Shown: positions 1-59,732 of the stretch, one piece after another
Numbering within the stretch: the stretch's first letter is position 1
Layout: each line of letters begins with the position of its first letter
Source of the DNA: a virus
Strand: one strand, 5' to 3'
Length of the DNA stretch: 59,964 bases
IMG/VR virus record: IMGVR_UViG_3300037189_017920
Coordinates: 1-59,964 of that record
The notes under the pieces: model-generated
Database searches by the model: none
The model's input: the letters and a program-made list of their open reading frames with translations, nothing else
Told to the model about the DNA's origin: nothing
Made by a program: the position numbers and the translations under genes

Positions 1-1161
1 CTTATGGGTCGGGCTCAGGCCACGGCGCTTCGTAAAAATAAGAGTTTTTTAACATACGGCTTCTGCCAGATCCTGGAGATGATTATTTATCACCAGGAGC
101 AGATTTTTAGGGAAAGTTTCGCTGCCGTTACGGAGTTAAAGAAGCCGAAACCGCCTAAAGAACAGACGCCTGAGGCTGTTGAGAAATATGAAGCGTCTCT
201 TCAGAGGTTCGAGGCGAAATTAGACGCAGCGATTCAAAAAGCGCTCGAAGAGAGGCGTGTTCCGCCTGGTGTGTATGGTCTGCCACCGGATGGCGACCGC
301 GAGGTCTCGTATCGCTTCCAGGGCGACGTCTATGAAGACACAGCGTACGATTTAAACCAAAAATCTATCGTTGTCCGAAACCTACAGGAACTCGGCGTGG
401 ACTCGGTCGAGGCAATTAAGTACCTCTTCCCGGATAAAACCGACTCCGAACGTGCGGAAATGTTGAAGGGTTTTCCCTTCCGCATGATTCAACAGACACA
501 AAGCGCATTTCAGCAATTTTTAGTATTATTAAGTCAGATGTTGCAGACGCCACATCCTCTTGCGCCGAATCAACCCCTAGCGGCTGATCCTCGGCTAAAC
601 CTCACGCCCCTGTTTTACAGGACGTTTGATCACCTTGCGCAAGAACTGACTTACTCGGGCAGCTATGAGCCAGCAGATCCCAGCTTCGATCCCGAGCCCG
701 GTCTCCCCGGCGGTAGCGGCCCCGCAGGCAGCGCCCTCGGCGGACATGGGCTCCACCGCCTACCCCCAATGGGTGGCCAATACCCAGGCGGTCGCTTCGG
801 CGACTATGCCTCAAGCGCCGTCGCCGGCAACACCGGTTACGGCCCCGTCTACCAACAACCAGTACAGCCAGTATCCGTCAACCTCCTCCCCGTCCAATCC
901 GTGGGAAGCGGCGATGGGCAGTCTGGAGCGGGTGGTTTCCCGAATCTCCCCGTCCCCCAGCCAGGCACAACAGTATCCTCAGTACCTGACGGCTCCGCAG
1001 GATACTCAACAGTACAGTCAAATTTCACAGGCCCAGCCGTGGCAGTTCCAAGCCCCTACGGCTCAGCCGACCTCGTTCAGCAACGGGTCTACAACCCCGA
1101 CTTCTTATCAGACTTCTACGGGTCAACCACAGCTAAGCGAGGCAAGCGCGGCCGTAGTTAA
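1..1161 (+). CDS. portal-like virion protein, C-terminal part (left edge of window)
   Basis: The frame is open from base 1, so this is probably the end of a longer gene; the first ATG is at 4. About 220 residues are charged and helical, including KPKPPKEQTPEAVEKYEASL, then RMIQQTQSAFQQFLVLLSQM. The remainder is Gly/Pro-rich and ends in a basic tail, TTAKRGKRGRS. It lies upstream of a scaffold-like gene and the capsid gene, where tailed phages usually keep the portal, so portal is inferred from position and not from a motif. The last ~500 bases overlap the next gene in another frame. Either both frames are used, or this gene's tail is a by-product of the other. Confidence 0.5.
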   Translation, partial: LMGRAQATALRKNKSFLTYGFCQILEMIIYHQEQIFRESFAAVTELKKPKPPKEQTPEAVEKYEASLQRFEAKLDAAIQKALEERRVPPGVYGLPPDGDREVSYRFQGDVYEDTAYDLNQKSIVVRNLQELGVDSVEAIKYLFPDKTDSERAEMLKGFPFRMIQQTQSAFQQFLVLLSQMLQTPHPLAPNQPLAADPRLNLTPLFYRTFDHLAQELTYSGSYEPADPSFDPEPGLPGGSGPAGSALGGHGLHRLPPMGGQYPGGRFGDYASSAVAGNTGYGPVYQQPVQPVSVNLLPVQSVGSGDGQSGAGGFPNLPVPQPGTTVSSVPDGSAGYSTVQSNFTGPAVAVPSPYGSADLVQQRVYNPDFLSDFYGSTTAKRGKRGRS

Positions 1162-1579
1162 CCACTTCGGTCTCGAAGCTCCTGCTGTTCTGAACGAGTA
1201 CGCCGTCACTCTCGAAGACGCTTTAATCAAGCAGAACGAGACGATGGAGGCTCTGGGTGCCCGCGCTGGCGCCATGGAGCATATGCTGACGGATCCTGAT
1301 CAACTCGCCGACTACACCAACCGGTTCTTCACTGAGGTGTACCCAGTCGACGATACCGCTACTGACGTGTATCCCTCCCAGGGTTACGAGCCTCAGTACG
1401 ATCAGATGCCTGCTGTTCCCGCGGCTGCCACCGGCGGTGCGCGCAACGTCGATCCCGACACTCAGTGGCAAGGTTTCAACCAGACCATGAACCGCTCTCC
1501 CGAGCAGGCGTGGCGCTATCTGTCACAAATGTCTCCCGACGCTCTGCGCAGCAAGCTGCTCTTCATGGATAACGGCTGA
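665..1579 (+). CDS. Pro/Gln/Ser-rich scaffold-like or virion protein
   Basis: 304 residues. The first ~155 are low complexity (Pro, Gln, Ser, Ala, Tyr, with repeated QYPQY/QYSQ). The C-terminal half looks folded and acidic-helical (NHFGLEAPAVLNEYAVTLEDAL, MLTDPDQLADYTNRFF). Its codons look more natural than those of the upstream frame over the same bases, so it is the more secure of the two. The ATG at 665 has only a weak upstream purine run; ATG codons at 746, 806 and 912 are alternatives, all still inside the upstream gene. Position between a portal-like gene and the capsid gene suggests scaffold or a capsid-associated protein, but no diagnostic motif is seen. Confidence 0.6.
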   Translation: MSQQIPASIPSPVSPAVAAPQAAPSADMGSTAYPQWVANTQAVASATMPQAPSPATPVTAPSTNNQYSQYPSTSSPSNPWEAAMGSLERVVSRISPSPSQAQQYPQYLTAPQDTQQYSQISQAQPWQFQAPTAQPTSFSNGSTTPTSYQTSTGQPQLSEASAAVVNHFGLEAPAVLNEYAVTLEDALIKQNETMEALGARAGAMEHMLTDPDQLADYTNRFFTEVYPVDDTATDVYPSQGYEPQYDQMPAVPAAATGGARNVDPDTQWQGFNQTMNRSPEQAWRYLSQMSPDALRSKLLFMDNG

Positions 1580-1585
1580 TATAAT
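1580..1585 (+). promoter_or_regulatory. possible -10 box TATAAT
   Basis: A perfect TATAAT follows the stop of the preceding gene. A purine-rich AAGAGGA lies at 1594-1600 and a hairpin at 1606-1622. No convincing -35 hexamer is seen at the usual distance, so this is only a candidate. Confidence 0.25.
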
Positions 1586-1605
1586 CCAGGCGTAAGAGGA
1601 CATTA

Positions 1606-1629
1606 CCCCGCCTCGTGCGGGGTTTTTTT
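1606..1629 (+). terminator. Rho-independent terminator
   Basis: The stem CCCCGC (1606-1611) pairs with GCGGGG (1617-1622) around a five-base loop, followed by seven T. It closes the first transcription unit. It sits directly against the ATG of the next gene at 1630, so it may also influence translation of that gene. Confidence 0.8.
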
Positions 1630-2295: not shown

Positions 2296-2296
2296 A

Positions 2297-2566: not shown

Positions 2567-2570
2567 TCAA

Positions 2571-3537: not shown

Positions 3538-3621
3538 ATCCCGCTAAAAATGCGACACATACTCAGCGCATTCAGTCGGTTTTAGGTAAAGTAGTTATGT
3601 AGTTCTTCGGGAGTTGGCGCT

Positions 3622-5732
3622 TTGTTCGTCGACAATGATTTTCCGAAGCTGCTCGGTGCCGAATTATACCGTCCGCATCCTGCGTACGTTGTAGAAATGG
3701 CAGCTGAGCCCGTGGTTGTTCACGACTTGGACGCACGCGTCTAGAGTCCCTCTAGGTGAAAGCCTTTAGGTTAAACTCCGTGAATTGCTGGAAAGCCGGA
3801 CCCGAAAGGGAGGCCAATCAGCAGCCAAGCCAGTCCGAAAAGACTGGAAGGTTCAACGACTAACACTGCTCGAATGCTCTCTCGAAGCGACCGCTCCTTT
3901 CTTAAAGGGGTCTGTTTGGGCGATGGCTGCCTCAGGCAGATAACGACTTACCCAAGTCTTCATCTAACCCACTCCAAAAAACAGTTTGAGTTTCTCCGCT
4001 GGAAAGTGGGAAGGTTAAATCGTATTTTTGGAATAAAACAGCCCATTAAAAGCAGAGAAGCAAACTGTCAGACAGGAAGTTTTCCTGCTTGTCAGTGGTG
4101 GTCTAATCAACAAGAGCTGTTATTACCTATTTATAGGGAACTCTACCCTCACGGTAAAAAAGAGTTTACTGCTTCTTTTTTACGAGACGTAGGGTTAGAA
4201 GGGCTGTCTCTCCTTTATATGGATGACGGCACTTTACATCTCCGCAAGCGTGGCTCATACACGCGTACAGGAGAACCTTATATCAGGGAACGCATTGTAG
4301 AGCTAGCTTTATATATCCCGTACGACACAGCTTTAGTTGTCTCGGATTGGATAGAAAGCCTTACAGGCGCCTCATTGGTTCCTCGGGTTCCGATGGCTAA
4401 AAAGAATCCTGATTTATGGAATCTCAGAGCCAACGGTACGTCCGCCAGGCAATTCGTCGAGGTTTTAAAGCCTTACGGTTGTAAAGCTATGAGCTACAAA
4501 TTCGACCTTCGCTACGACACCCGAACAAATCGGGGTAAGTCGAAGTGGAGCGAGGCTGACCGCAACAAATTTGTTGTAGAAGCCGATAAGGTGACACGAG
4601 TGCGGAGCACCCAAACAGAGGTTATACCTGCTGTGGGTGAAGATATAGTCTACTCATCAACGCCCTTAAGTTGATGTTACGTAAGGATAAAGAGCCTTAC
4701 GGTGCTTGCTAAAGCATTACAGGTAGCAAACAACCCGGCCAGACCGTTCAGCTTGACCGTTATCGCTTCTGGGGCAACCCCGGTAGCAAGGAATCACGCG
4801 AGCGTACTGCAGAGCAGACCATTGGTACTGCAAGCAGCAGGAACATTGTCAAGGACAAAGTTCTTGTAACGCTCCGTGAGTATACAGGCCCTGCGGATCC
4901 GTCTGATCCTACTCAGCCCAGCACTTTCAAGATTGCGCGTGAGACGTTAATCACCGCGCAACGTTTGCTGTTGGACACCGGTAATCTTACCGCGTTCCAC
5001 CAGTCCATCGGCTCCTTAACTCTTCTCGACGACTATCGTCGTTGGCGCGACCGGGTGTTCATCAACGAACTCCTTAAAGCTGTTTCTAAGGGCCAAGCTT
5101 CTGACACCCAAGGTGGTTATTACTACCCTGGCGATCTCGCTGTCGGCAGCCTGACTTACGCCAACGCCGAACAAGCTAAGTTCGACGTTAAGGATGACCT
5201 GCTGCGCGTGGTGAAGAGCCTGCGTAAGCGGAATACTCCCACGTATCAGGACGGTTTCTATCGCTGCGTTTGCGATCCGACCTTCCTTATGCACCTCCGC
5301 CAGAACAGCGACTTCCGCGAAGTTGCTCGTTACCCTGGCAACGGGCAGATCAACCCTCTCATGTCCTCGATGCAGCCTAACGCTGCCATCTACATGGGTC
5401 AGGGTTTTGGCCAAGCTACTTTTGTGGCTGGCGAGCCCATCATGCCCACCGGCTTCGTGTTCGAAGGCGTTCGCTTCTTCGAGTCCACGAACATGCCCTC
5501 GCAGGCTCAGTCTGCGACTATCGGTGGTACTGCTGCTTCTTACGAAGCTGCGATCGGTATGTTCTTCGGTCCCCAGAGCGTTGGCGTCGGCATCGGCGGC
5601 AACAATGCTCAGGTGCTCCTGAACAACAACGACGACTTCAGCCGTTTCATCATGATGATTTGGAGCCTGTACGCAGGTTTCGAACTTCTGAACGCTGACT
5701 TCGCGACCATCGCTTACTCCTTTAACGCTTGA
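3622..5732 (+). CDS. major capsid protein, split by a group I intron
   Basis: Exon 1 is 3622-3728 and exon 2 is 4724-5732, together 371 residues. Exon 1 starts at TTG with GGGAG eight bases upstream and reads FVDNDFPKLLGAELYRPHP...VVVHD. Exon 2 continues SKQPGQTVQLDRYRFWGNPG. Joined at these sites the codon becomes TTT (Phe) and the frame runs on without a stop, whereas unspliced reading meets TAG soon after exon 1. The QTVQLDRYRFWGNPG region and the later capsid-like segment (QDGFYRCVCDPTFLMHLRQN) fit a tailed-phage HK97-fold capsid protein; this is family recognition, not alignment. Followed by GAGGAGATA and a capsid-associated gene. Confidence 0.8.
3729..4723 (+). ncRNA. group I intron in the capsid gene
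   Basis: Core elements are visible: P-like AATTGCTGGAAA (3783-3794), Q-like AATCAGCAGCCAAGCC (3816-3831), R-like GTTCAACGACTA (3851-3862) and S-like GAAGATATAGTC (4639-4650). P1 pairs exon end GACTT (3724-3728) with GAGTC (3744-3748), ending in the expected U-G at the 5' splice site. P10 can form between exon 2 TAG (4724-4726) and CTA at 3741-3743, next to the P1 guide. The intron would end in G at 4723, as group I introns do. Length 995 bases, with the endonuclease frame between R and S, that is in the P8 region. Confidence 0.9.
3874..4674 (+). CDS. LAGLIDADG homing endonuclease, intron-encoded
   Basis: 266 residues with two LAGLIDADG-type helices: FLKGVCLGDGCL (about 9-20) and LSLLYMDDGTL (about 111-121), each with the acidic residue that binds metal at the active site. 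A monomeric two-motif enzyme of this kind cuts an intronless capsid gene and drives intron spread. The frame lies in the P8 region of the intron. Its last residues are coded by the S element and the following core, so coding and ribozyme sequence overlap. Both motifs look intact, so activity is plausible. Confidence 0.88.
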   Translation: MLSRSDRSFLKGVCLGDGCLRQITTYPSLHLTHSKKQFEFLRWKVGRLNRIFGIKQPIKSREANCQTGSFPACQWWSNQQELLLPIYRELYPHGKKEFTASFLRDVGLEGLSLLYMDDGTLHLRKRGSYTRTGEPYIRERIVELALYIPYDTALVVSDWIESLTGASLVPRVPMAKKNPDLWNLRANGTSARQFVEVLKPYGCKAMSYKFDLRYDTRTNRGKSKWSEADRNKFVVEADKVTRVRSTQTEVIPAVGEDIVYSSTPLS

Positions 5733-19248: not shown

Positions 19249-19577
19249 AGAGCGAGGACTGTATTTATAAGTGAATTAAACTCGCCGTTAACACAATACA
19301 GAATGTGTTGCTCAAAAATAATTTTGATGACGATTCTGTACTTGATCAGCCTGTTTAAATCTCGCAAAACCCGAGGTTTTGAGAAACCTAAAGAAGCTAC
19401 TAGATCGCGTGTCGACAACGGTTGCTCGCATGTTAGCAGATGAAGCAAATCGGAATGATGCGCTATGCAAGCGCAGATTTTTTTATGTTCGTAATCGTGC
19501 GCATCGAAAACTTGCGGTTGTACTTCTCCGCGAGCAAGTTTTGAATCATTTGGTTGGTTGCCCTCTTGGAAATCCAT
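19245..19577 (-). CDS. winged-helix DNA-binding protein
   Basis: 110 residues from the ATG at 19577 (MDFQEGNQPNDSKLARGEVQ). LSTRDLVASLGFSKPRVLRD and LNRLIKYRIVIKIIF look like a recognition helix and wing. No later ATG or GTG could replace this start, so the gene overlaps the end of the upstream gene by about 115 bases in another frame. Likely regulator; target unknown. Confidence 0.55.
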   Translation of the reverse strand: MDFQEGNQPNDSKLARGEVQPQVFDAHDYEHKKICACIAHHSDLLHLLTCEQPLSTRDLVASLGFSKPRVLRDLNRLIKYRIVIKIIFEQHILYCVNGEFNSLINTVLAL

Positions 19578-41206: not shown

Positions 41207-41394
41207 CGCCTAGCGATTGGCTCAACGTGGCTCGGTGCGCTAACATTCGAGCCGATGCCAAAACATTTAACTGGGACGAGGACGACAGTCCCCTCGGTGA
41301 ATTAATTACGCGTGAAGCGGCACGAATGCTCGCTTACCGTAAGGCATTAATTGATGCTGTCATTGCGGACTTTGTATCCCACGGTTTCCCATGA
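41203..41394 (+). CDS. hypothetical small protein
   Basis: 63 residues, ATGA overlap with the endolysin. Acidic N-terminal part (DWLNVARCANIRADAKTFNW), then an Ala/Arg-rich helix. Not recognised. Confidence 0.5.
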   Translation: MTPSDWLNVARCANIRADAKTFNWDEDDSPLGELITREAARMLAYRKALIDAVIADFVSHGFP

Positions 41395-41654
41395 GCGAAA
41401 ACTCGTCTGATTGGCAACAAGTTCTTTTGACTTGGGACGTAAAAGCCGAACAAGAGAAAGCAGACTTTCTTGAAATTCTTTATAAATTTTGCGAGCCGAA
41501 AGACCACACTTACACTGGTCTCTACCAATCTTTTTGTGAAGCAGCGCCCCAAATCCTTAAACGGATTGTCTTGCAGAACTTCTCAACAGACTCAAGTTCT
41601 TCTAATGATACCGATTCGCGCCGCGATCCTCAACAGCCTATTTGCGACGTTTAG
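41391..41654 (+). CDS. hypothetical small protein
   Basis: 87 residues, ATGA overlap with the previous gene. Helical with conserved-looking Trp and Cys (TWDVKAEQEKADFLEILYKF), Ser-rich tail. Not recognised. Confidence 0.45.
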   Translation: MSENSSDWQQVLLTWDVKAEQEKADFLEILYKFCEPKDHTYTGLYQSFCEAAPQILKRIVLQNFSTDSSSSNDTDSRRDPQQPICDV

Positions 41655-41713
41655 GCGATTCACCGTGGCGATAAAAGAGGCGCTTCTAAAATACGTGTAG
41701 CTAGTTATCTGCC

Positions 41714-43377: not shown

Positions 43378-43959
43378 TTATTTTATCAGGTTTTGCCACG
43401 GATCTTGCGATTCCGCTGGTGAAACTGGAACCTGCCCCGGCGTGGACAGCTGGTTCATCTTGGCGATCACATTTTGCACCATGCCAAGCTGCTGTTTTAA
43501 TGCTGCGTTTTCGGACGCCAGAGCTGTGTTTCGGCTTTCAGCCCATGCAGTTGCGTTGGCCGTCAGCTGATCCAGCACGTTCTCTGGGTGCGGCAGCTTG
43601 AACATCACGCTATTTTCCGTCGGGATTGCTTGCCCGCCTTGGCTCTCAGCCAACGCAGCTAAAAAAGTTTTAGCTTTATCGAACGGAATGTCTGAGTTGA
43701 ACGCTAATTGCTCTGGAATTAGCAGACCCTTGTTCTGCTCGTACAGGTAGTTGAAAACCTTAGCGACCTTGGCTGCTTCAACAGCGTCTTCTTCCGACTT
43801 GCGCCGGATTTCGCTTGCGACCGAGGCGCCGGTCAACAAACCCCCCGTGGCCGACATAGCCACTGAAATGTATTCAGGCCGGACAACTGCAGTTGATAAG
43901 GTGCCCAGTGCGCCGACTGCGATCAGCGAGCTAAACAGGTGTTTCTGTAGAAAGTCCAT
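43378..43959 (-). CDS. membrane-anchored coiled-coil protein
   Basis: About 193 residues from the ATG at 43959 (MDFLQKHLFSSLIAVGALGT). A hydrophobic segment (SLIAVGALGTLSTAVV) is followed by a coiled coil (EEDAVEAAKVAKVFNYLYEQ) and a Gln-rich end. Last gene of the minus-strand replication run, start overlapping the end of the primase-helicase gene by about 30 bases. Perhaps membrane attachment of replication; inferred from position only. Confidence 0.5.
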   Translation of the reverse strand: MDFLQKHLFSSLIAVGALGTLSTAVVRPEYISVAMSATGGLLTGASVASEIRRKSEEDAVEAAKVAKVFNYLYEQNKGLLIPEQLAFNSDIPFDKAKTFLAALAESQGGQAIPTENSVMFKLPHPENVLDQLTANATAWAESRNTALASENAALKQQLGMVQNVIAKMNQLSTPGQVPVSPAESQDPWQNLIK

Positions 43960-46690
43960 CGTGAGCTTCAAAGGCTGTTTGCCAAAAAGATTGAACTGGA
44001 TTCGAGGCCCATTCCACGGGGGAGGGCAAACGGTTGTCGCCGCTGGCGGCTCGGTCCGTACTCGGATCGTAGGGCTTCAATCGTAGCCCGCTGAAGACCG
44101 CCTTACCATTAATAAACTTTGGAGCAACGCCATCGATCTTGAGAACATTACGCACAGTCTCTTTAAGGCGGTCAACAAAACGAGGTTTCGCTGAGTGTTT
44201 GTAGCCGTTTGATTTGCAGAAGTTCACGTAGCTTGCATACAGCTCTGAGTATGCGTTTTTAACAAACATGCCTCGTTCGCTCTCGTCTGTGTTGGGGCGG
44301 AACGCACCGCCGCCGATCAGCGCGTGGCTGTTTGGGGCGTACATGGTGCATTCAGCAAGCCAAGCGACATACGGGTTGTTGAAGATCAACGCTTCGAGGT
44401 TGGTCGCGTTGAGTGAGGGTACGTGCTTAACGGGGTTGGCCAACACATCCCGCATATCGTCAAACGGCATATCCAACGCCCAGGACACCACGCCGCTGAG
44501 TTCCGGCACCAGCTCACCTTCGATCCGGTCCTGGTATACGTTGAGCAGGTCGCGCCGCTCAGATGCGGGCACGACTCGATCCATGATGATGGTGAGTCGT
44601 CGCCGCTCTAGGCCGCTACTGATATCGGAGCTGCTGATGTGCTCGTTAGATGCGATGCAGACCAGAGCTTCGGGCTTGAAGCTGATTACCTCTTTGCCGT
44701 ACTTACGTTCTGCACGCAGGGTGTCGGATGCTGATGTGATCTTTTTAAGAACGTCGAGTCGCTTGTTGAAGTTTGCCTCGTCCGTGAGCAACAGCAACTT
44801 CTTACCGATTAGGTTATGACACTCAAATTTGTTCGTCTCGATGATCTCCAGGTTGCTTGTGTGAGTCGCGCCAAACCCTGCGAGTGCAATCAGAAGCTGC
44901 TGCAGCGTGGACTTACCCGTGCCTCCAGGACCAACCAAATGCAGGAATCGCTCGCCCGTTGTGTAGCCCGTCAGTAGCGCACGGCAGAATGCTCGGACAA
45001 TTACAACACGTTCCGTACCTACGCAGGAGTCAATCCAGGTAAGGAACTTGGGGCACTGTGCATTCGGCTTGTAGGGGTACGCCAGGCGGCTACGCAGATA
45101 CAGCTCCTTCTGGTTGTCTTCCTCAAAGTTAAAGTTTTCGGCGTTGAGCACCCCGTTTGTGAATGGGATCTTGCCTCGTGACTTGCTCCAGATTGAAGTA
45201 CGACCGCCGTCGACCGATTTCAACAGCTTTGCCTTCAAGATCTGGTAGACGGAGCTGACCGTTGCTGAGTTGTACCTGGGCAGCACGCCAGCGGTCACAA
45301 ACGTATCAAGAGTCTTTACGATTCGCCGTTTGATGTGCTGCTCGTCTTGGATATACCAAATGCCACGGTCGTTGTCGTAGGTAAAGAACTCATCTAGCGA
45401 CGAGTCAAACAGAAAATCCGTGCCGTAGTTGTTGACGATAATGTCAGCAACGTCGTTCTCCGAGAACTGTCGATTGTTTTGCTGTATCTGAACGAGTTGA
45501 GCCGGCGTGGCTGGAGTCTGCGTCACTGTCGGAGCCTTCTCTGTTGGTGTTGATGTTGATGTAGGCGTCTCTTCGAGCAGTTCGTCGAAGGACAGAATTG
45601 AATTCGAAGCCTTTGGTTTCTTGGCTGCAATCTCGGTCTTTATGGACTCAGGACAATGCGTCTCGTAAATCTCTTTATAAGATTGGCGCACGCGACGCCA
45701 GACTGCAGCTTCCCCGTCGTCTGAAGCAATCGCGATTGCTGGTTGCAGATCCTGCGCATCAGTGATGCTGTTCAGGATCCTGTAAAACTTGCCATCCAGT
45801 GCCGGGTCGTACTCGTAGATATTCTCGAACACCAGTTGTGCGGTTGTCAAGGGGTCCGCAATTGCCGGCAACCCGTGAGTGTTCAACCAGTTGCACCAGC
45901 CGATCAGCTCTTTGAGGGCCAGGGCCATCGAGAACGACCTGTCGTCGACCTCCTCCCCTTCCAGGATCGCCCTGACGGCACCGCTCGCCACCCGTGACAG
46001 ATCGATGCCTGCCAGGCTCACCTCCGTTTTGAGACGCTCCTCCGCGTCGTACTCAGCCGGCGTGGTCTTAGGCAGCGACTCGTACAGGGCAAACGCCTCG
46101 TCGATTTTTGAACTGGGTATATATCTGTCAGTTACACAGATTCGACTTTCTACGCCCGCGCCGCCGTAGAACAGGTTGGGCACCTGAGTGGCTCGCCGAT
46201 CAGACCCTGGGATCTGATTCGCGATGTAACGAGTAAACCACTGATAGAACCCCGTATCCGTAATCTCTTTCTCAAGCCCAAACACGAGCCTGAACCGAGG
46301 CCAATCCGCCGCGTGGCTAGGTGAGTAGTAAGCAAAACTTAAATAGTTTTTGCAGAGTTCTAGTTCTAGTGCTTGCTCAACGCTTAATTGTTGATCTTGA
46401 ATCTTGTTACCGTTTTCATCTTTACCGTCTGCTTGATTATCGATGTCAATAATTATCAACCCGCTCTTTAGACAACCTGTCTCTTTTTCTTTCCGTTTGC
46501 CGTCAGTTAAGTGCCACGCGCACAATCCGTTTTGCTTGTCGCAAACGAATTCCGCAAGCTTATCGACATCACCTTCACAAGCGATCCAGTTCTCGTTAAA
46601 CGCGCGGAAATTGCCGCCGGGCGCGATCTTGCCAGACTTGGCGTTTATATATTTTTGAACCTCCTCGTTGCGGCTGAAGTAAAAGTCCAC
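43931..46690 (-). CDS. primase-helicase (AEP-like primase plus D5-type SF3 helicase)
   Basis: 919 residues from GTG at 46690 with AGGAGGGG upstream. The N-terminal part (GLIIIDIDNQ, later SHAADWPRFRLVFGL) suits an archaeo-eukaryotic-type primase/RepB-like domain. The C-terminal half is D5/SF3 helicase: Walker A GPGGTGKST near residue 587, Walker B LLLLTDE, motif C ALVCIASNE. It would prime and unwind at the replication fork. The large size agrees with fused primase-helicases. Downstream of the exonuclease and polymerase region. Confidence 0.85.
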   Translation of the reverse strand: MDFYFSRNEEVQKYINAKSGKIAPGGNFRAFNENWIACEGDVDKLAEFVCDKQNGLCAWHLTDGKRKEKETGCLKSGLIIIDIDNQADGKDENGNKIQDQQLSVEQALELELCKNYLSFAYYSPSHAADWPRFRLVFGLEKEITDTGFYQWFTRYIANQIPGSDRRATQVPNLFYGGAGVESRICVTDRYIPSSKIDEAFALYESLPKTTPAEYDAEERLKTEVSLAGIDLSRVASGAVRAILEGEEVDDRSFSMALALKELIGWCNWLNTHGLPAIADPLTTAQLVFENIYEYDPALDGKFYRILNSITDAQDLQPAIAIASDDGEAAVWRRVRQSYKEIYETHCPESIKTEIAAKKPKASNSILSFDELLEETPTSTSTPTEKAPTVTQTPATPAQLVQIQQNNRQFSENDVADIIVNNYGTDFLFDSSLDEFFTYDNDRGIWYIQDEQHIKRRIVKTLDTFVTAGVLPRYNSATVSSVYQILKAKLLKSVDGGRTSIWSKSRGKIPFTNGVLNAENFNFEEDNQKELYLRSRLAYPYKPNAQCPKFLTWIDSCVGTERVVIVRAFCRALLTGYTTGERFLHLVGPGGTGKSTLQQLLIALAGFGATHTSNLEIIETNKFECHNLIGKKLLLLTDEANFNKRLDVLKKITSASDTLRAERKYGKEVISFKPEALVCIASNEHISSSDISSGLERRRLTIIMDRVVPASERRDLLNVYQDRIEGELVPELSGVVSWALDMPFDDMRDVLANPVKHVPSLNATNLEALIFNNPYVAWLAECTMYAPNSHALIGGGAFRPNTDESERGMFVKNAYSELYASYVNFCKSNGYKHSAKPRFVDRLKETVRNVLKIDGVAPKFINGKAVFSGLRLKPYDPSTDRAASGDNRLPSPVEWASNPVQSFWQTAFEAHDGLSTETPV

Positions 46691-46748: not shown

Positions 46749-47528
46749 TTAAGTCTGGCCTAGGTTCTCGTAGAACTTTTGTAAAACCGCCAGCCATTGT
46801 GTTTCGTGTTTTTCAACTTCTTTTGGGCCGAAAGTGAATACTTGAACTGAGTACTCCGGCACCGGAGTAGACACGATAATTTGAGTTTTATCGATAGAGA
46901 TACCCAAGCATCTTTCGGCAGCCATTTTGTACGCAGCCAGCTGCAGTTGTGTTTTCTTAAGTTTGAAAACTCCCGATACGAGCGCTTTACGAGTGGCGTC
47001 GTCTAGTTGTGCGGTTGCGCGTGGGAAATTACAGCTGTACGGCCCAGTCGACGTTTTGAAGTCTCCTAGGATTGTTTCGCCGTTATGGTCTCTATAAATG
47101 ATGTCACAGCACCCCGCGTAACCGTGCTGCGTCTTTTCGTCATAATAATGAATTCTGCCTACACCATCTTCACCTACGTATTTAGCCCACGCAGGTTGGT
47201 TAAAAGGCTTCTCTGACCACAGGATTTTGCCACCGTCTAGAAGCTCTTCAAGTTTTTCTGGCATCCCGTCCCAATACGGCTTGTAGTCCGCAGGCGGGTG
47301 TACTGCTAGGCCGCGCACATAATTTTCTACACAGTTATGAATCCATGTCCCTCTTTCAGCTGCTTTATCTGCTACACCCGGATTCATCAGATTCCAGTGC
47401 GCCAGCTTTTTTCGGGTCTCCTCGGTCTGCGTGGCTGACAAAACAGACGTAACAGATGGTAATGGCCTTGGAACGCCATCACACACGTAATGTCTTAGTC
47501 CGTTTAATGTTAGCCTTGTCGAGGACAC
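46749..47528 (-). CDS. PD-(D/E)XK exonuclease (RecB-like)
   Basis: 259 residues, GTG start. GYAGCCDIIYRDHNGETILG, then DFKTSTG keeps the D...(D/E)xK triad of RecB-like nucleases. RGTWIHNCVENYVRGL forms the helix before it. Likely a cyanophage-type 5'-3' exonuclease for host DNA degradation or recombination. Followed on the minus strand by the primase-helicase. Confidence 0.85.
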   Translation of the reverse strand: MSSTRLTLNGLRHYVCDGVPRPLPSVTSVLSATQTEETRKKLAHWNLMNPGVADKAAERGTWIHNCVENYVRGLAVHPPADYKPYWDGMPEKLEELLDGGKILWSEKPFNQPAWAKYVGEDGVGRIHYYDEKTQHGYAGCCDIIYRDHNGETILGDFKTSTGPYSCNFPRATAQLDDATRKALVSGVFKLKKTQLQLAAYKMAAERCLGISIDKTQIIVSTPVPEYSVQVFTFGPKEVEKHETQWLAVLQKFYENLGQT

Positions 47529-49690: not shown

Positions 49691-50335
49691 TCAGAGTGAG
49701 AAATCGATCGAACCGATAGCGGCAGCAGCTACCTTGCCTTTTTCTGGGTCTACAGCTTTTTTAGGAGCGGACTTAGTCGACTTAGGCAGATAAAGAACTT
49801 TATCTAGATTATAGTTTAAATAGAGCTTACTGTCTTTTTCGCTTGTCGAGACTTTACCCACAGCGATTGTAGGTGTACCGGGGCTCAATTCTGCCAGCTG
49901 TGTGGACAATTCCCCCCAAGCTGTCAGTTTGAACCACGCCGTTTCGCTTTCGTCTGTCTGCCATGCGAGAGACCGATTAGTTACGGTCGTATCATTTACT
50001 TCGGTTTCCTCTGTCTTGGGCCCAAGACCCCCCGTGGCAAAGAAGACGTTGATTGCCAGCAGATCGTTGAAGTTTTCCTCTGTTACGACCAGCATGGCCT
50101 GCATCTTCAGCACGCCGTCCAGGGTCGGTTTAGTTGGACCCAAAGCTAAGACGGTTTGTCCTACCTCTAAGTTTTTAAGAAGCTTTCCGACGTAGTGATT
50201 TGCTTGTTGTAAGAGTTGCACTTTAGTCGCAACCCGTTTTTCGTTTGAAGGCAGGTTTTCCGCAAGTACGTTTACTAAGCCTTCATCTTCCTGCGCAGTA
50301 GCAGTGATCTTTAGCCCCAGCAAAAACAGATTCAT
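49691..50335 (-). CDS. SSB-like OB-fold protein
   Basis: 214 residues. AWFKLTAWGELSTQLAELSP, then TPTIAVGKVSTSEKDSKLYL and NYNLDKVLYLP fit the OB-fold of single-strand DNA-binding proteins (WxxLTxWG...GxVxVxGK). Acid/hydrophobic tail AAAIGSIDFSL. It would protect ssDNA during replication and recombination. 15 bases downstream on the minus strand is the IDF-tailed protein. Its start overlaps the upstream gene by 53 bases. Confidence 0.6.
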   Translation of the reverse strand: MNLFLLGLKITATAQEDEGLVNVLAENLPSNEKRVATKVQLLQQANHYVGKLLKNLEVGQTVLALGPTKPTLDGVLKMQAMLVVTEENFNDLLAINVFFATGGLGPKTEETEVNDTTVTNRSLAWQTDESETAWFKLTAWGELSTQLAELSPGTPTIAVGKVSTSEKDSKLYLNYNLDKVLYLPKSTKSAPKKAVDPEKGKVAAAAIGSIDFSL

Positions 50336-50864
50336 GCTTTAGGTTTCTGTAAATGGTTGAACGATGGACGTTAAGCACCTTGGCGATCTGGGTGATCCCG
50401 GCGCCGCGGCTCCGATAGGCTACTAGCAGTCGGCGGTCGCCGCTTGAAATTTTTTCATTTTTACTGGAACTGTATTTGAAGTGATACGGATTTATACAAG
50501 TCTTGTTTCCGCAACTTGGCCTGGCGCAACTGTCTTCTTTTGGGATATCTAAGTACCTGAGAATGACGTTGCGGATGTAGTGGCGTTCTTGTAGAGCGTA
50601 GCAACAGGGAATACCATTACACACAGACCCTGCCCACAGTGTGCACACACTGTGGTGGAAACTGTTGTCAGCTAAATCTTTGAAAATATCCGAGACTACG
50701 GTATCTTTTGACGGCTCGTACAACAAATCGTACAAGTTTGCACCAAAGGCACGAGCAATATCCGCCGCTTGAGCTTGCGCGTGGCCACAGTCTTGTGCCC
50801 ATATCGCAAGCTTTAGTGTTTTAGAACGTTTGCCTAGTCGAAGCGTATAACAGTCTTTACTCAC
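50283..50864 (-). CDS. zinc / degenerate HNH protein with C-terminal HTH
   Basis: 193 residues, GTG start. CARPSCGNKTCINPYHFKYS holds the CxNPxH zinc loop of HNH proteins with the catalytic His absent. The C-terminus (YRSRGAGITQIAKVLNVHRS, then TIYRNLKHE) is a recombinase-type HTH. Probably a DNA-binding regulator or a decayed nuclease. Same design as the genes at 18404 and 19463. Confidence 0.6.
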   Translation of the reverse strand: MSKDCYTLRLGKRSKTLKLAIWAQDCGHAQAQAADIARAFGANLYDLLYEPSKDTVVSDIFKDLADNSFHHSVCTLWAGSVCNGIPCCYALQERHYIRNVILRYLDIPKEDSCARPSCGNKTCINPYHFKYSSSKNEKISSGDRRLLVAYRSRGAGITQIAKVLNVHRSTIYRNLKHESVFAGAKDHCYCAGR

Positions 50865-52381: not shown

Positions 52382-54280
52382 CTATTTTGCAGACCAATCG
52401 GCGCCAATGCCGGGTTCCGCTACTAATTTTGTCTTTTTAAACACGGACTCCCCAGCTTGCACCATGATTTCAGCAAGCTTTTCTCCCCACTCCTCTTCTA
52501 ATCCTTTCTTAACTTCTAGCACGCATTCGTCGTGTACCACAGCAACCAATCGCACGTCATCGCTCAGATGTTCTCCTAGATTACCGAGAGCAATCTTGAG
52601 AATATCAGCACCGGTTCCTTGAATCAGGGTGTTTGCCGCCGTGGTCATCTTCGCATCGTCATACGACAGCAGACGTCGACGCCCTAATGCGGTACGGGTG
52701 TAGCACCACCCGTCTTGAACCAGTGCTCCTCTTTGACGATGCCATTCCCGAAGCCTGGGATAACTGCTATGGAATTTCGCGTGAAGTACTTTGCTTTCGG
52801 AAAGGGATAAATGCAGGTCATACGCAGCGGCAGCGTACGTTTTGAACTTACGAAATCCGATGCCAAAAATCATGCCGAAGTTGGCGCCCTTTGCCATCTG
52901 TCTTTGATCTTTTGTGACATTCTCTAGTTCACAATTGTTTATTAGACTTGCTGTAAGCCTGTGAAGATCTACGTCGTTGTTGTAAGCTTCCTGCATTTCT
53001 TTAATGTCTGCTAACTCTGCTAGCAGCCGCAGCTCCATCTGGTTGTAATCTGCGATCACCAGACTATATCCTTCGCTTGCTTTAAAGCACTTCCTAAACT
53101 CCTTTGAACGTGGAATCTGTTGCAAGTTGACTGCAAAAGTCGATTTGGCGTTCTTTTTGGTTTCCTTGGCGGCGCCTGCACACGTGAAGCGCCCGCTGTT
53201 TGCCCCAACTTGATTGTAAAAACTATGAATACGCTGTGTTACTGGGTGTATGTTGTTAATTAATTTTGTTATATGCTCCAGACTTGTTTCTAGTTTTACC
53301 CGCTCTCGGTAAAGCTGGAGGGTAGGGTCGTTGCTGTCAAATTCTGACAACGCTATCTGACTCAAAGTCTTTCGTCCCGTTGTTTCACTTACAGGTACTT
53401 CGATTCCGCACAGTGCGAAAGCACTCGTCACCTGCGAAGTCGAGCCAGGATTAAATTCTTTTTTTGCTTTTTTACCTACCAGAACTTGCCCATCATCACC
53501 GCGTGGCAGCTTCGCAAACTCAGGCAGTCGCTCGTCTAACGCATGAACAAATTCGTTGGTTTTTTCATCAAGGTTTTTCGTTATGGCGTCTCTTAAAGAA
53601 AACAGTTTATCTTTATCGACGTTGAATCCTGTATAGCACATGAGTGCAACCGGACGCACGCATCTTGATTCAATGCTGTAAATACCCAGAAGATCTTCTT
53701 CCTTTAACTCTTTCAATTGGTCTGCCGCAATTGCCGGCAAAATGTCGACGTCAGTTGCCGCGTATTCGATCTGTTCCGCAGTCAGCTCAGGCTGACTCCA
53801 GTCTGTCATTCGCTGCTCTTTACTTATTTCTCGGCCGAGTCTGCGGTTAGCTACCGCTTTTAGACCGCACGAGACGTCATCGAAGTACGGTTTATTCAGC
53901 TTGGGCGAAACCTTACGCTCTTTATAACCTGCACGCAGCACACGCTCTGCAACATATGTGTCAAATATCTTGTTCTTAAAATCAATTCCTAAATAATATA
54001 AAAACTGCAGATCAAAATTTAAATTGTGACCCAGCAACATCGCTCTAGATTCTATGAATTTTTTAAGTGATTGCATATCTGTTATTGCAAATAGATCTAA
54101 AACGTAAACAGTTCTGTCTTGCAAATCTGGCGCGGCATCGCAGATCTGCAGCAGTCTCGGTTTTGCTATCCGAGCCTGGAGCCCCGTGGTCTCAAAGTCC
54201 AAACAAATCTTTGATGTTTCCTTGAGTTCATCAAGAGCTTTTTGCTGCTGAGTGTTTTCTGTGATGTAAGTAACTTGCAT
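52382..54280 (-). CDS. polA: family A DNA polymerase with 3'-5' exonuclease domain
   Basis: 632 residues from ATG at 54280. Exonuclease: DFETTG (28-33), later YAATDVDILPAI with the Tyr/Asp pair. Polymerase: motif A DYNQMELR (411), motif B KGANFGMIFG (464-473), motif C VHDE (582-585). Motif B has Phe at the E. coli F762 position, and Phe instead of the Tyr at the E. coli Y766 position. No 5'-3' exonuclease domain. Phage replicative polymerase. The start was chosen over a longer frame because a strong terminator lies inside that frame. Confidence 0.92.
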   Translation of the reverse strand: MQVTYITENTQQQKALDELKETSKICLDFETTGLQARIAKPRLLQICDAAPDLQDRTVYVLDLFAITDMQSLKKFIESRAMLLGHNLNFDLQFLYYLGIDFKNKIFDTYVAERVLRAGYKERKVSPKLNKPYFDDVSCGLKAVANRRLGREISKEQRMTDWSQPELTAEQIEYAATDVDILPAIAADQLKELKEEDLLGIYSIESRCVRPVALMCYTGFNVDKDKLFSLRDAITKNLDEKTNEFVHALDERLPEFAKLPRGDDGQVLVGKKAKKEFNPGSTSQVTSAFALCGIEVPVSETTGRKTLSQIALSEFDSNDPTLQLYRERVKLETSLEHITKLINNIHPVTQRIHSFYNQVGANSGRFTCAGAAKETKKNAKSTFAVNLQQIPRSKEFRKCFKASEGYSLVIADYNQMELRLLAELADIKEMQEAYNNDVDLHRLTASLINNCELENVTKDQRQMAKGANFGMIFGIGFRKFKTYAAAAYDLHLSLSESKVLHAKFHSSYPRLREWHRQRGALVQDGWCYTRTALGRRRLLSYDDAKMTTAANTLIQGTGADILKIALGNLGEHLSDDVRLVAVVHDECVLEVKKGLEEEWGEKLAEIMVQAGESVFKKTKLVAEPGIGADWSAK

Positions 54281-54292
54281 TCTATTTGAGGG

Positions 54293-54318
54293 AAAAAAAG
54301 TCCCCGGAGACCGGGGAC
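54293..54318 (-). terminator. strong terminator on the minus strand
   Basis: GTCCCCGG (54300-54307) pairs with CCGGGGAC (54311-54318) around a three-base loop, with seven T following on the minus strand (plus-strand A run 54293-54299). It sits between the polymerase start and the preceding gene, so the polymerase needs its own promoter or antitermination. Confidence 0.93.
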
Positions 54319-54347
54319 AGAGCTGATCGTTTGTTGCTTCGTCGACT

Positions 54348-55142
54348 TTACTGCACGCGCAACTTGTAGAAATTGAAGATGTAATCTTCGCAGTCAGCCC
54401 AGAGTTCATACACGGCTTTACCCTTGTCAGTTGCTTTCAGTTTGTAGAAGAGGCGACTGAGAGTTTGGGCCTGCAACGCATTCTTAGCGTTCGGACTCGA
54501 GGTTGAGACGGAATTCTTAGTTACGACCAAACCATGCTTCTTACAAAAAATCAATCCGTCTCGCAACCCGATATACAACGGCGAAACATGGAAAGTTTTA
54601 CGTCTCTCTACTCCGTTTGCAAAATCTAAAGCAGCCAGCCCGCCGGTCCCATCTTCTTCGAAACCTTTAAACAGCACGGAAGTAGCCGGCATTCCCTTGC
54701 AACCCCAACAGTAATTTGCATAGTCGGTCGCAATTTGCCGCAGCGTGGTTAACTCCGACGACTCTCCGCAAACACTGTGAATGATTAAAGCCGCTCCGAC
54801 CGACCAGTATGCCTGAGTGCGATTTAGTTTATCAATTACCTTTTCTACAGTTAGTTGCTCAGAAAGTTTGTTTAGTGGCGTTAGTACGTCCAGTGTAGTC
54901 TTAACGCTTGCTTGCTTTTCGCTGCCGGTTTTAGCGACGGAGATTCGCCAAGCTAAATTGGCCAACTCAGGCTGTTTTTTCTCTACCGCCAGCTCAAACA
55001 GAAATTTGCTGCTGACTTTACGCAGATCGACGAGAGACGCCAAGTCAAGTGTTACCTCGTCATTTCCGGCCATTGCGCCCAGCAAGGCATACGCCTCTTT
55101 CTTTTCGATTGGCGTGCCGTTGAGTTGAAACTGCAGATCCAT
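54348..55142 (-). CDS. hypothetical protein upstream of the polymerase
   Basis: 264 residues from ATG at 55142 (MDLQFQLNGTPIEKKEAYAL). Helical, with Cys-rich spots (WGCKGMPATSVLFKGFEEDG) and basic C-terminus (YKLKATDKGKAVYELWADCE). Followed by the strong terminator. Not recognised; the same operon as the replication genes. Confidence 0.5.
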   Translation of the reverse strand: MDLQFQLNGTPIEKKEAYALLGAMAGNDEVTLDLASLVDLRKVSSKFLFELAVEKKQPELANLAWRISVAKTGSEKQASVKTTLDVLTPLNKLSEQLTVEKVIDKLNRTQAYWSVGAALIIHSVCGESSELTTLRQIATDYANYCWGCKGMPATSVLFKGFEEDGTGGLAALDFANGVERRKTFHVSPLYIGLRDGLIFCKKHGLVVTKNSVSTSSPNAKNALQAQTLSRLFYKLKATDKGKAVYELWADCEDYIFNFYKLRVQ

Positions 55143-55861: not shown

Positions 55862-57412
55862 CTACCGAACACAACGTTGAATGACGTCGATCGTATTATC
55901 GAGACTGTACAACGAAACTGCGTAGACCTCGTCACTAAATTTATGACATGTGTCAGAGACCTCTGACTCGACACAGACGGTACTCCATTGAGTTCCAGTC
56001 GCTTGCTTAAACGCGTTCAGACGCTTTACTACCGAATCGTTGACGTCGGCGTGCCCGTCGGTGATCATCAGAACGTCGGTGCGGTCGTCGAAACAGCCCT
56101 TATCCGCGGCGTGGGCCAGGACGGCATTGAAGCTGGTTCCTCCTCCCAGAGTCCACTCCGCCATGAAATCGAGCACGTCCCTTCGCGCCGTTGTTTTTGA
56201 ATCAATCTTCAAGCTTTGATCGATTCTGGTGTCGAAGAGATTTATGTAAACTGTTCTATTTTCTTTCAAAGCGCTTTCTGCGACTACAAGTGCAATAGCT
56301 TTGCTCCACAGTTCTTTTTCGCCGCTCATCGAGCCTGATACGTCAACGTACATAACCACGGGGCCTTTGCCGAGATTTTTACAGGCTGCGTCGTAGTTTT
56401 TCGTTAGCAGAGTTTTGTGAGAGTACTTGAGTGCAAACAGCGCTTTACCTTTGTCTGTGCCAGCCAGTGCAAGCTCCGCTGGAAACGCACGCGTCAGGTT
56501 GTCGCTGAACTCCGCGCCAACAACAGCTTCGTACGAAGCCTTCGATTTTTTAGCTCGTTTCCGTTCATTCCAGATCTGACGGAGCGCTCCCAGCTTCTTC
56601 GCCAGTTCTTTCAGTTTCTTATTGTTTTCTAATCGGCGCGCCAGTTCCTGCTTTTCCTTTAAATCCATCGTTCGCGAACCTTGCCCAGGCAACACGCCGC
56701 ACAGCGTGGATAAGGCATCGTTCTTTTGCTGACTCTCTTTGAGCACCTCGTCAACAATGTCGTTCGTGTGCGCTTTTAGCGTATTCATAGCAGCTTGAAC
56801 TGCTTCATTAATTTTTTGATTGATTTGCTTACCTTGGCTGCGTGCTTTGCCTGCAGCAGTCCTATCATCATCTTCCAAAGCTTTCTTGCACTGTTCACGC
56901 AGTTTATTAAGCTCCTCGCTAGCTCCCGTTAACAGTTTTACGTCGAAAGTCATCGTGTGAATGGCTTCCTCAATCGCTTCTGAAAGTTTATTTAAAATGC
57001 TGATCGCGTTATTACCGCTGTTAAATTGCTCACCTACGCAGTGCTGCAGCAGAGTCGGCCACGCTGCTGTATTGCTTAGATCAGCCATGATCGCATGCCA
57101 AATTGCGTCTTCAGGTTTGTAGCCTTCAGGCATTGCGGCCGCGTCACCGTCACAAACTTTTCGGAAGTACTCTTCGTACGCATCCTCGGTTACAAGCCAC
57201 GTAACGTTATCAGCGTTGTAAAGACGATCGAACAGTTCCTTACCGAATCGTGAGAGTTGTCGAATGTTGTAATGATCGATTAGATAATTTACAGAAGGCC
57301 GTGCACTCCGAACGAAATCTTCCCACAAAAAATCAGCAAGTGCCGAGCACGCAAGCGTGAGCGGTTTGTTGTCTACTAGACGTACAAATTCAGTTTGCGT
57401 TGCAGTGTTCAT
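55862..57412 (-). CDS. VWA-domain protein, partner of MoxR ATPase
   Basis: 516 residues. Helical N-terminal half with charged segments, then a von Willebrand A domain: MYVDVSGSMSGEKELW (MIDAS DxSGS near 354), later TLGGGTSFN and VLMITDGHADVN, the other MIDAS positions. Long N-terminus plus C-terminal VWA is the layout of ViaA/CoxE/CobT-type partners of MoxR ATPases. The ATPase gene lies 330 bases away with one small gene between. Function unknown; client remodelling is the likely theme. Confidence 0.82.
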   Translation of the reverse strand: MNTATQTEFVRLVDNKPLTLACSALADFLWEDFVRSARPSVNYLIDHYNIRQLSRFGKELFDRLYNADNVTWLVTEDAYEEYFRKVCDGDAAAMPEGYKPEDAIWHAIMADLSNTAAWPTLLQHCVGEQFNSGNNAISILNKLSEAIEEAIHTMTFDVKLLTGASEELNKLREQCKKALEDDDRTAAGKARSQGKQINQKINEAVQAAMNTLKAHTNDIVDEVLKESQQKNDALSTLCGVLPGQGSRTMDLKEKQELARRLENNKKLKELAKKLGALRQIWNERKRAKKSKASYEAVVGAEFSDNLTRAFPAELALAGTDKGKALFALKYSHKTLLTKNYDAACKNLGKGPVVMYVDVSGSMSGEKELWSKAIALVVAESALKENRTVYINLFDTRIDQSLKIDSKTTARRDVLDFMAEWTLGGGTSFNAVLAHAADKGCFDDRTDVLMITDGHADVNDSVVKRLNAFKQATGTQWSTVCVESEVSDTCHKFSDEVYAVSLYSLDNTIDVIQRCVR

Positions 57413-57734: not shown

Positions 57735-57742
57735 GCTTGACT

Positions 57743-58933
57743 TTATTCGCGACTGAAGTCGTTAATTGCTCGGGCAAGAGTATCGCAGTTGCCTTGCAAA
57801 CTTTGCACCAACTTAACGCCAGAGCCCCGCGTGGTTGCACTCATGCGAAGTTTAGAGCCGTCAAGAATCTCAGAAACTTTTTCCTTAACGGTAGACATAT
57901 CTTTGTGATACTTACGTAGCAGCATTACGAAATCATTCAGTTCGTTTAGGTTCTTGTTCTTAGCTCTATGTGCGCTTGCTGCGTACTCTGCCATGATCCC
58001 AGCTGCCGCCCGTTTAGCGTCGCCGAATACTTTCTCTGCGGTAGGTATTTCCTGTTCGATAACCTCCCGAATAATCTCTTTATCTTCAGGAGTTTGATAA
58101 ACGATGTGAATGAGACTGTTGTGCATGTGCTCTGGATATAGTTCGTCGTCTCCTTGTACGACAGCCCACGCTCGGAGGAACTTAAGGATTTGAATACGGC
58201 GACGATCGCTGATCGTGATCGCCCGCTGCTCAAGCATTTCCCAGATTGAGCTAAATTTATCCAGAAAATCGTCTGATACGCTGACCTCACTCGCTGCCTC
58301 CTGGAGGGCCGTCAGCTCGTCTAGTGTCAGGTGCTCGCCTACCGCAGGCCTCTTCTTCAGTCCGAGGCCCCATTGATCGAGCTGCCGTTTGGAGACCGGT
58401 TTACGCAACAGATCAACCGTGGGGCGGAACAGGAAACGATCAGCGAAAGCCTGCAAAGATTCTTCGTCAGGCCAACTGTTTGTTGCGGCAACAATCGACT
58501 GAATTGGTGTCTTGATGTTTTCTTTGCCGTTGTTGAACGTGCGTTCGTTAAGCAGCGTCAGAAGAGAGTTCAAGATTGCCGAGCTTCCCCGGAATAGTTC
58601 GTCTGTGAACGCGATGTGCGCATCAGATAGATATCCTGTGACGTCGCGTTCGTACTCATCTTGCAAAAGCTTTGTCACCGCTACCGGGCCAAAGATTTCG
58701 GACGGGTCGGATGTTGGGGTCAACAAGTATCCGAAGTATCGAGCATCTTTGATACCGTTACACATGGCGCGCACCAGTTCGGATTTACCGGTGCCGGGCA
58801 CACCTAGCAAGAATGCGTTCTGCTTGCTGAGCAGCGTGGCCAACAAACCGTCGACGATATGCTCGCGTTCAAGGTATGCACTGTTAAGCGCACCACGAAA
58901 GTTCTGCAGTTTGACGAAAAGAGAGGTTTCCAT
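57743..58933 (-). CDS. MoxR-family AAA+ ATPase
   Basis: 396 residues. Walker A GVPGTGKS at 44-51, Walker B IAFTDELFRG near 107, a sensor-like IVAATNSWPDEESL, and the RFLFRP segment after it. MoxR proteins remodel other proteins, generally with a VWA protein coded nearby, as here. RavA-ViaA, CbbQ-CbbO and NorQ-NorD are known pairs; the CobS-type ring is close too. The helical C-terminal extension fits. Client in this phage unknown; ATV, an archaeal virus, has MoxR and VWA in its tail development. Confidence 0.88.
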   Translation of the reverse strand: METSLFVKLQNFRGALNSAYLEREHIVDGLLATLLSKQNAFLLGVPGTGKSELVRAMCNGIKDARYFGYLLTPTSDPSEIFGPVAVTKLLQDEYERDVTGYLSDAHIAFTDELFRGSSAILNSLLTLLNERTFNNGKENIKTPIQSIVAATNSWPDEESLQAFADRFLFRPTVDLLRKPVSKRQLDQWGLGLKKRPAVGEHLTLDELTALQEAASEVSVSDDFLDKFSSIWEMLEQRAITISDRRRIQILKFLRAWAVVQGDDELYPEHMHNSLIHIVYQTPEDKEIIREVIEQEIPTAEKVFGDAKRAAAGIMAEYAASAHRAKNKNLNELNDFVMLLRKYHKDMSTVKEKVSEILDGSKLRMSATTRGSGVKLVQSLQGNCDTLARAINDFSRE

Positions 58934-58963
58934 GTTTGTGTTTGTTAAGTGAATTTGACGGCT

Positions 58964-59179
58964 TCAGCTGCCTGAGCAAACAGGTTTAGGCAAGGGGAAC
59001 GGGATGGATGCCTCAGCTATCCAGCAACGTTGTTTCATGGTTTCTCTCGCCGTAGAGAGAGCCCGCCATGCCCGATCTGATGTCACGAAGAAACAAGCTT
59101 CCGCAGGGTCGTCTGTAAAAGAATTGAGATCCTTGATGTAACCGCTTGCGCAGCAGAGCACAGAGACACGTCGTTGCAT
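58964..59179 (-). CDS. hypothetical small protein
   Basis: 71 residues, starting MQRRVSVLCCASGYIKDLNS. Cys-rich and basic. Tight to the next gene (two bases). Not recognised. Confidence 0.4.
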   Translation of the reverse strand: MQRRVSVLCCASGYIKDLNSFTDDPAEACFFVTSDRAWRALSTARETMKQRCWIAEASIPFPLPKPVCSGS

Positions 59180-59180
59180 C

Positions 59181-59732
59181 TTAAAAATCGATTGCGAGTG
59201 TGGTGTTTTCGGCGACAGGAGCCTGCGTGGAAACCTCTGAAATTAGATCGTCCAGCTTCTCGCCGGCGTCGCCGATAAGTTCTTTCCGCTGATTAATCAG
59301 CTTCTTAAGTTGCTTGGAGCGTTGAGCATATACGTCAATCTCCAAGTTTGCGTCTTTGATCAAAAGATTCAAGGAGTTAACATTCTCCGCGGATTTGATG
59401 CGCTCGCACAGGGATTTGTAAGTGGAAGAAAGAGCCAATGAGCGCTGGAGTTTTTCCAAACCCTTAGAGCTGTCTCGCGTATTGCACACAGCCTCTAGTT
59501 CAGTTCTAATCTCTTCCTGAACAGCAAAAAACTCTTTTGTTCCGGCTTCCCGCGTGGCCCTGTCCGCAGCTTGAATATCTTGCCCGGCCTGAAGCAAGCG
59601 GTTTGCAAGCGTAGTGAGCTGCTCAAAACCTGCAACTGAATCGGAGATAAGCTTTAACCGCTCCGCTGTAATCTGCCACGAACCGCGTTTCTTGTCTCCC
59701 CCTGTTTGTTGTTTTCCTACTTTAGTTACATG
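59181..59732 (-). CDS. coiled-coil protein with IDF tail, N-terminus cut by a junction
   Basis: About 183 residues are readable (TKVGKQQTGGDKKRGSWQIT ... ENTTLAIDF). Helical coiled coil (KSLCERIKSAENVNSLNLLI, then YAQRSKQLKKLINQRKELIG). The C-terminus AIDF matches the tails of other proteins in this operon. Upstream sequence changes abruptly to GC-rich terminase DNA, so the true start is missing. The open frame can be extended into the GC-rich part, but that reading is nonsense there. Confidence 0.6.
   Translation of the reverse strand, partial: HVTKVGKQQTGGDKKRGSWQITAERLKLISDSVAGFEQLTTLANRLLQAGQDIQAADRATREAGTKEFFAVQEEIRTELEAVCNTRDSSKGLEKLQRSLALSSTYKSLCERIKSAENVNSLNLLIKDANLEIDVYAQRSKQLKKLINQRKELIGDAGEKLDDLISEVSTQAPVAENTTLAIDF

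Follow-up and report, generated by a model that had tools for sequence, protein, structure and literature searches.

An evenly spaced, strand-polar motif array in an environmental phage family and its possible use as primase recognition sites

The locus and its replication genes

The sequence analysed here is the 59,964-base virus record IMGVR_UViG_3300037189_017920, the whole of which we call the window. Positions 1-50990 are 99.996% identical to the contig IMGVR_UViG_3300032287_003712 (67,428 bp); that contig extends 16.4 kb further upstream than the window and stops ~9 kb earlier. The nearest named isolate is S-EIV1, with which the window shares its major head protein (62%) and a portal-like gene (51%). 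This relationship and a short stretch matching two Synechococcus phages suggest a cyanobacterial host, and the window belongs to a family of aquatic phages that probably infect cyanobacteria.

Several loci of the window deserve mention in their own right. The major head protein gene (3590-4970) is split by an insert of ~1 kb, which falls between '...VVVHD' and 'QPGQTV...' and carries a LAGLIDADG endonuclease (3874-4674), and the corresponding gene of the relative G002 is unbroken. The insert is probably a self-splicing intron; Rfam, at its threshold, detected no known intron in it. A terminase homologue in another relative, G006 (the contig of locus L074), is split by ~1.2 kb relative to those of G007 and G005, perhaps by another intron. 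An exostosin-like glycosyltransferase (GT47; 36919-37833, minus strand) lies amid the tail genes, and a MoxR-type ATPase (55862-57412) adjoins a vWA protein (57743-58933) in a RavA/ViaA-like pair that is conserved through much of the phage family. Two further conserved proteins (19463-20170 and 50283-50864) have, as judged by eye, a CxNPxH zinc-site motif and no HNH catalytic histidine; they are possible DNA-binding regulators.

The replication cluster includes, on the minus strand, a primase-helicase (43931-46690) that is assigned by PHROG to the DNA primases and that we propose as the reader of the motif described below. An AEP/PrimPol fold (residues ~1-205) is followed by a helical bundle (~225-356) and then by the Pfam domains D5_N and DUF5906 of a C-terminal SF3 helicase, both of which are present in all 17 aligned members; the NCBIfam P4-family domain TIGR01613 also matches, under its cut-off. 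An AF2 model of the N-terminal 380 residues (pLDDT 84.7) had as its best Foldseek match in the PDB the AEP domain of the PrimPol of cyanophage S-2L (prob 1.00, E 1e-3, TMt 0.50), with weaker matches to further AEP primases of viruses and archaea, and the model thus identifies the N-terminus as a predicted AEP/PrimPol catalytic fold. A sequence profile of the same region found no PDB sequence. The hhhDhD acidic motif reads IIIDIDN, and all of 27 relatives retain D82 and D84. At the apparent sxH motif the window has SPSH, and relatives have N, S, Y or D in place of the histidine. The modelled helical bundle (residues 225-362; 45605-46018, minus strand; pLDDT 91.8) matched nothing in the PDB at E<=0.001; in the model it takes the place that the GTG-reading helix-bundle domain has in the pRN1 and NrS-1 primases. 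The primase of S-EIV1 has a different N-terminus, in which Pfam recognises Prim-Pol and PriCT_2.

The remaining assigned members of the cluster, all on the minus strand, are an exonuclease (46749-47528; PHROG 298) with a homologue in S-EIV1 (37% identical); a probable single-strand DNA-binding protein (49691-50335; a weak Pfam SSB match, E 5e-4, below the cut-off); a protein with a C-terminal HTH (50283-50864; Pfam HTH_23/HTH_38), which is an alternative candidate reader and is present in G001-G005, G007 and G009 and absent in S-EIV1; and a family A DNA polymerase with a 3'-5' exonuclease domain, recognised by Pfam (PolA; 52382-54409). Several core replication genes are without an assigned function.

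A one-strand array indifferent to gene orientation

The hexamer SCGTGG occurs 108 times on the plus strand of the window and 31 times on the minus strand, the plus-strand array extending from 395 to a last site at 59552-59557. Among all 6-mers of the window the strand skew is highest for GCGTGG (70:17). Shuffling of synonymous codons within genes yields an expectation of 38.0±4.9 sites on the plus strand and 30.4±4.6 on the minus strand; the plus strand is thus enriched ~2.8-fold and the minus strand is at background, not depleted. A preliminary description of this DNA, made by eye, had asserted a plus-strand excess and had proposed such shuffles as its test, and they do not reproduce the strand ratio. 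It had also judged the complement to be clearly rarer at the left and about half as common at the right, and the counts agree, with 35 against 11 sites in the first 16 kb and 32 against 16 beyond 42.5 kb. Site density is similar in plus-strand genes (1.79/kb), minus-strand genes (1.86/kb) and non-coding DNA (1.56/kb), so that the description's argument against codon bias as the source of the skew holds; the three coincidences with GTG starts that it listed (7605, 23198 and 42588) are all correct.

The description was right about the skew of the hexamer and wrong about the length of the signal. The site proper is C-N-S-CGTGG (73:13 for plus and minus strands), which is followed by a weaker N-Y-R; the full pattern C-N-S-CGTGG-N-Y-R, the consensus of the array, is found 40 times on the plus strand and twice on the minus. 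With A or T at the S position there is no enrichment (WCGTGG, 15:34), and no single substitution within the core has a comparable skew in the window, each of them losing the excess. A repeated element was ruled out as the source of the array, the flanks being unconserved outside the consensus.

The plus-strand sites are also evenly spaced. The mean gap between SCGTGG sites is 553 bp, with a coefficient of variation of 0.54 as against 0.99±0.09 under random placement, and 2 gaps are shorter than a quarter of the mean where 23.6 are expected, which confirms the earlier impression of few short gaps. The run of gaps that had been read from 41.2 to 46.1 kb stands within rounding except for the first of them (440), which does not exist since no site lies near 41.2 kb (the gap from 39652 to 41663 measures 2,011 bp). 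Of the 398 6-mers that occur at least 25 times in the window, GCGTGG has the lowest gap variation. The minus-strand copies of SCGTGG have neither even spacing nor any such order. Both the even spacing and the avoidance of close pairs recurred in all eight relatives tested.

Two suggestions of the preliminary description can be weighed against these figures alone. As regards a host modification target with an orientation bias, avoidance of the type III restriction kind predicts depletion of one orientation and is ruled out, the reverse copies standing at 31 against 30.4 expected; a packaging signal fits no better, since packaging has no need of 70-100 evenly spaced copies.

Relatives, other cyanophages and hosts

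Searches of IMG/VR with PolA, the primase and the primase N-terminus returned many loci. Those of 9 kb or longer number 127, some of which overlap or share a contig, so that not all are independent. In every one of the 127 the strand that corresponds to the window's plus strand has the larger count, as the preliminary description would have predicted of related phages; the summed counts on that strand and its reverse are 2728:996 for the hexamer and 1705:296 for C-N-S-CGTGG. The core consensus is identical in every clade, and in contigs of 57-86 kb the polarity extends over most or all of the length. Across the family C-N-S-CGTGG recurs at intervals of ~0.5-1 kb, nearly always on the one strand. 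One of these contigs, G002, carries a terminal repeat of 304 bases; at ~86.0 kb it is probably complete. The polarity, taken relative to the replication genes, is kept among these loci down to 36% GC. In a distant PolA relative, L041, the primase and the bias were both absent from the stretch examined.

When homologous genes of relatives (59-67% nucleotide identity) are compared, ~27-39% of the sites are at a shared position as against ~6-25% of the reverse copies, for which the counts are small; sites are therefore retained above background, and most of them turn over. Such figures bear on the possibility that the array is a side effect of codon use, base composition or common descent. It is true that most sites of the window lie in a single codon frame (xSC-GTG-Gxx) and that about a third of the relatives' sites are at shared positions. 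However, about two thirds have turned over with the density maintained, loci at 36-42% GC are still polar, and the codon shuffles and the equal density in opposed genes and non-coding DNA point the same way. We regard the chance of a by-product as negligible, and a codon or composition artefact as ruled out by the shuffles, the equal density on both gene strands and the AT-rich relatives. Coding constraints affect where sites are placed but do not generate them. The shuffles, the spacing and the relatives together bear out the earlier reading of the motif as a strand-polar signal, and they strongly support the view that it is real and independent of genes and of codon bias.

This signal is not a general property of cyanophages, an idea that is ruled out by the absence of the extended bias in three of them. 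S-EIV1 (34:33) and S-SRP02 (41:37) have no strand bias; in KBS-S-2A the hexamer is skewed (31:14), but C-N-S-CGTGG is present in the ratio of only 7:4. The absence of the bias in S-EIV1 coincides with its different primase N-terminus, but this phage differs in much besides its primase, so that the comparison does not single out that protein. Nor does the motif appear to be a host signal. In 61 Cyanobiaceae genomes, the likely hosts to judge from the relationships of the phage, it is about as frequent as a reversed-pattern control or rarer and has no strand bias, and in 79 cyanobacterial segments there is no excess bias either (chi2 80 for 79). With the chromosome arms taken together in these counts, we consider a host signal unlikely for hosts of this kind.

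These host data weigh against both of the guide sequences, Chi-like and KOPS-like, that had been suggested, since the enrichment that they predict is absent from the presumed hosts. Chi-like sites would protect the phage DNA or steer a RecBCD-like nuclease of host or phage that enters at one end. Chi sequences are short, polar and blind to genes, that of E. coli ends in GTGG, a single exposed end would make one orientation useful, and the phage encodes an exonuclease. Nonetheless, even spacing and the avoidance of close pairs are not expected of Chi, neither the Cyanobiaceae genomes nor the cyanobacterial segments have the bias, and S-EIV1 retains the exonuclease without the motif; we consider this explanation unlikely. 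A polar, genome-wide motif could likewise be a KOPS-like guide, either for a DNA translocase or for the direction of packaging. But such a guide leaves the spacing and the rarity of close gaps unexplained, no FtsK-like protein was found among the window proteins scanned, and the likely hosts are without enrichment, all of which makes it highly improbable.

The preliminary description had also raised a nick signal. Strand-specific nicks made by a phage endonuclease, as in virions of the T5 or phiKMV kind, would indeed be biased to one strand, and HTH proteins such as that at 50283-50864 could be the readers; this protein is conserved together with the motif, and both it and the product of 19463-20170 appear by eye to carry zinc-site motifs like those of HNH nucleases. 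However, the catalytic histidine expected before the cysteine pair seems to be missing and no HNH family was detected. With ~100 regularly placed nicks, one strand would be left in fragments of 0.5 kb, and neither the GTGG core nor the spacing is predicted by nicking. We think this suggestion distinctly improbable.

Fork direction and a primase-site interpretation

If the direction of the replication fork sets the polarity of the motif, then a local flip of polarity in otherwise collinear DNA is to be predicted. Such a flip occurs in G007 (the contig of locus L026), whose left 40 kb have 35 plus-strand copies against 11.6 expected and which beyond 40 kb has 14 minus-strand copies against 5.1 expected, the polarity being opposite over ~17 kb (~40.9-57.5 kb). 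An inversion was ruled out, this stretch being collinear with its relatives. The equivalent stretch lies 1.5-19 kb upstream of the portal-like gene, and there the reverse copies are enriched in G003, G005, G006 and G008 (z 3.8-5.2); in the rest of these genomes they are mostly at expectation (G006, z 2.6). Since G005, G006 and G008 form one clade, these amount with G007 to about three independent cases. Two clades, that of G001 and the window and that of G002 and G004, have no reverse enrichment in the equivalent stretch. Among the reverse copies in that stretch the share with C at -2 is no more than slightly higher (48% as against 39%, p 0.12).

Base composition was also compared. At fourfold sites, once gene strand is corrected for, most relatives have more T than A on the motif strand, an asymmetry that is weak or absent in G007, G009 and S-EIV1; the composition skew of G007 does not flip with its motif polarity, and the classical leading-strand pattern of GC skew was not seen. 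The flipped stretch is suggestive of forks that run both ways near an origin or a terminus, and we regard 40.9-57.5 kb of G007 and its equivalents as a candidate region for one or the other.

The explanation that fits best is one that the preliminary description did not raise, and we lean modestly towards it: the phage's own AEP-type primase-helicase would recognise the motif and prime the lagging strand there. The plus strand would then serve as lagging-strand template along almost all of the genome, with copying by a rolling circle or in some otherwise one-directional manner. Exposed C-N-S-CGTGG would be read at its GTGG core by the primase-helicase, and the primer would start at the C just 5' of this core; because an invariant C stands before the GTGG, and S before that C, the primer would begin with G followed by C or G. 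Sites would define Okazaki fragments of ~0.5-1 kb, and the even spacing would result from selection that retained one site per interval and disfavoured close sites. A fork that moves one way should have its lagging-strand sites on one strand, without regard to genes and plausibly at the spacing of Okazaki fragments, so that the primase-site interpretation would explain the core, the strand bias, the spacing and the gene independence together. Primases that read such a core have been described. In the pRN1 primase the helix-bundle domain recognises 5'-GTG in the template (PMC11009956), and the NrS-1 primase uses 5'-GTGG and 5'-GTGA most efficiently (PMC8718748); in both, synthesis starts at the first upstream base. 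The asymmetry at fourfold sites and the flip in G007 also count in favour of this interpretation. On the other side stand the unmatched helical bundle and N-terminal profile, the variable histidine of the sxH motif, the skews of G007 and of GC, the two clades that have no reverse enrichment and the unusual length of the site.

Some other reader linked to replication, for example a host primosome entry site or another phage protein, is also to be considered. The polarity tracks something besides the genes and varies locally between collinear relatives, and the functionally unassigned genes of the replication core leave room for such a protein. But an additional reader would have to be invoked even though the phage already has a primase with a fold of the GTG-reading kind; we think this unlikely, if the least so of the alternatives.

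Known primase sites are usually 3-5 nt long, and they are normally in such large excess that the real primer starts cannot be read from the sequence. We know of no 8-nt primase site that is under this much selection, nor of an evenly spaced, one-strand, family-wide array of primase sites. The primase recognition site as a kind is known; such an array of them was not found in the open-access papers searched, where we likewise found no report of a motif array of this type. The broader proposal, that this phage lineage has been selected for an evenly spaced one-strand array of 8-nt primase sites, a genome-wide code for lagging-strand priming in which flips mark moved origins or changed fork directions, is one on which belief and doubt are for us evenly balanced. 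If it is true, fork direction and Okazaki length could be read directly from the sequence, a whole environmental phage family would display its lagging-strand priming map, and the array would make the copying of a phage genome unusually easy to read. With ~70 sites above expectation per 60 kb, replication could also, if the array is one of primase sites, strongly shape coding sequence.

Among known systems, Chi and KOPS resemble the array in being short, polar, genome-wide and gene-independent. They are, however, features of host chromosomes that are not evenly spaced, and the present motif is not enriched in the likely hosts. The sites of T7 gp4, 5'-(G/T)2GTC, would be alike in function, being lagging-strand-template sites that set Okazaki starts; but gp4 is a DnaG-type primase, few of its 177 pentanucleotide sites are believed to be active, and those parts of the T7 account on which we draw (PMC12839067) describe no comparable selection for even spacing. 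The primase ORF904 of plasmid pRN1 (PMC11009956) has in common with the present case the GTG core, a D5_N helicase and, on our reading, initiation at the adjacent 5' base. It belongs, however, to an archaeal plasmid for which no genomic array is reported, and it reads GTG by its helix-bundle domain, whose possible counterpart in the window is a modelled bundle that matched nothing in the PDB. The primase-polymerase of phage NrS-1 (NrSPol) uses 5'-GTGG/GTGA sites and TTTGGTTA (PMC8718748, PMC7102993). In NrS-1 there are two TTTGGTTA sites, one per strand, and the GTG sites are described only as numerous, with no evenly spaced one-strand array reported; the window, in contrast, has the longer site and its phage a separate PolA. 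The two nonetheless share a GTGG template core and an AEP primase, a phage-encoded combination of AEP core, accessory domain and helicase, and, if our reading of the window is correct, a primer start at the first base 5' of the core.
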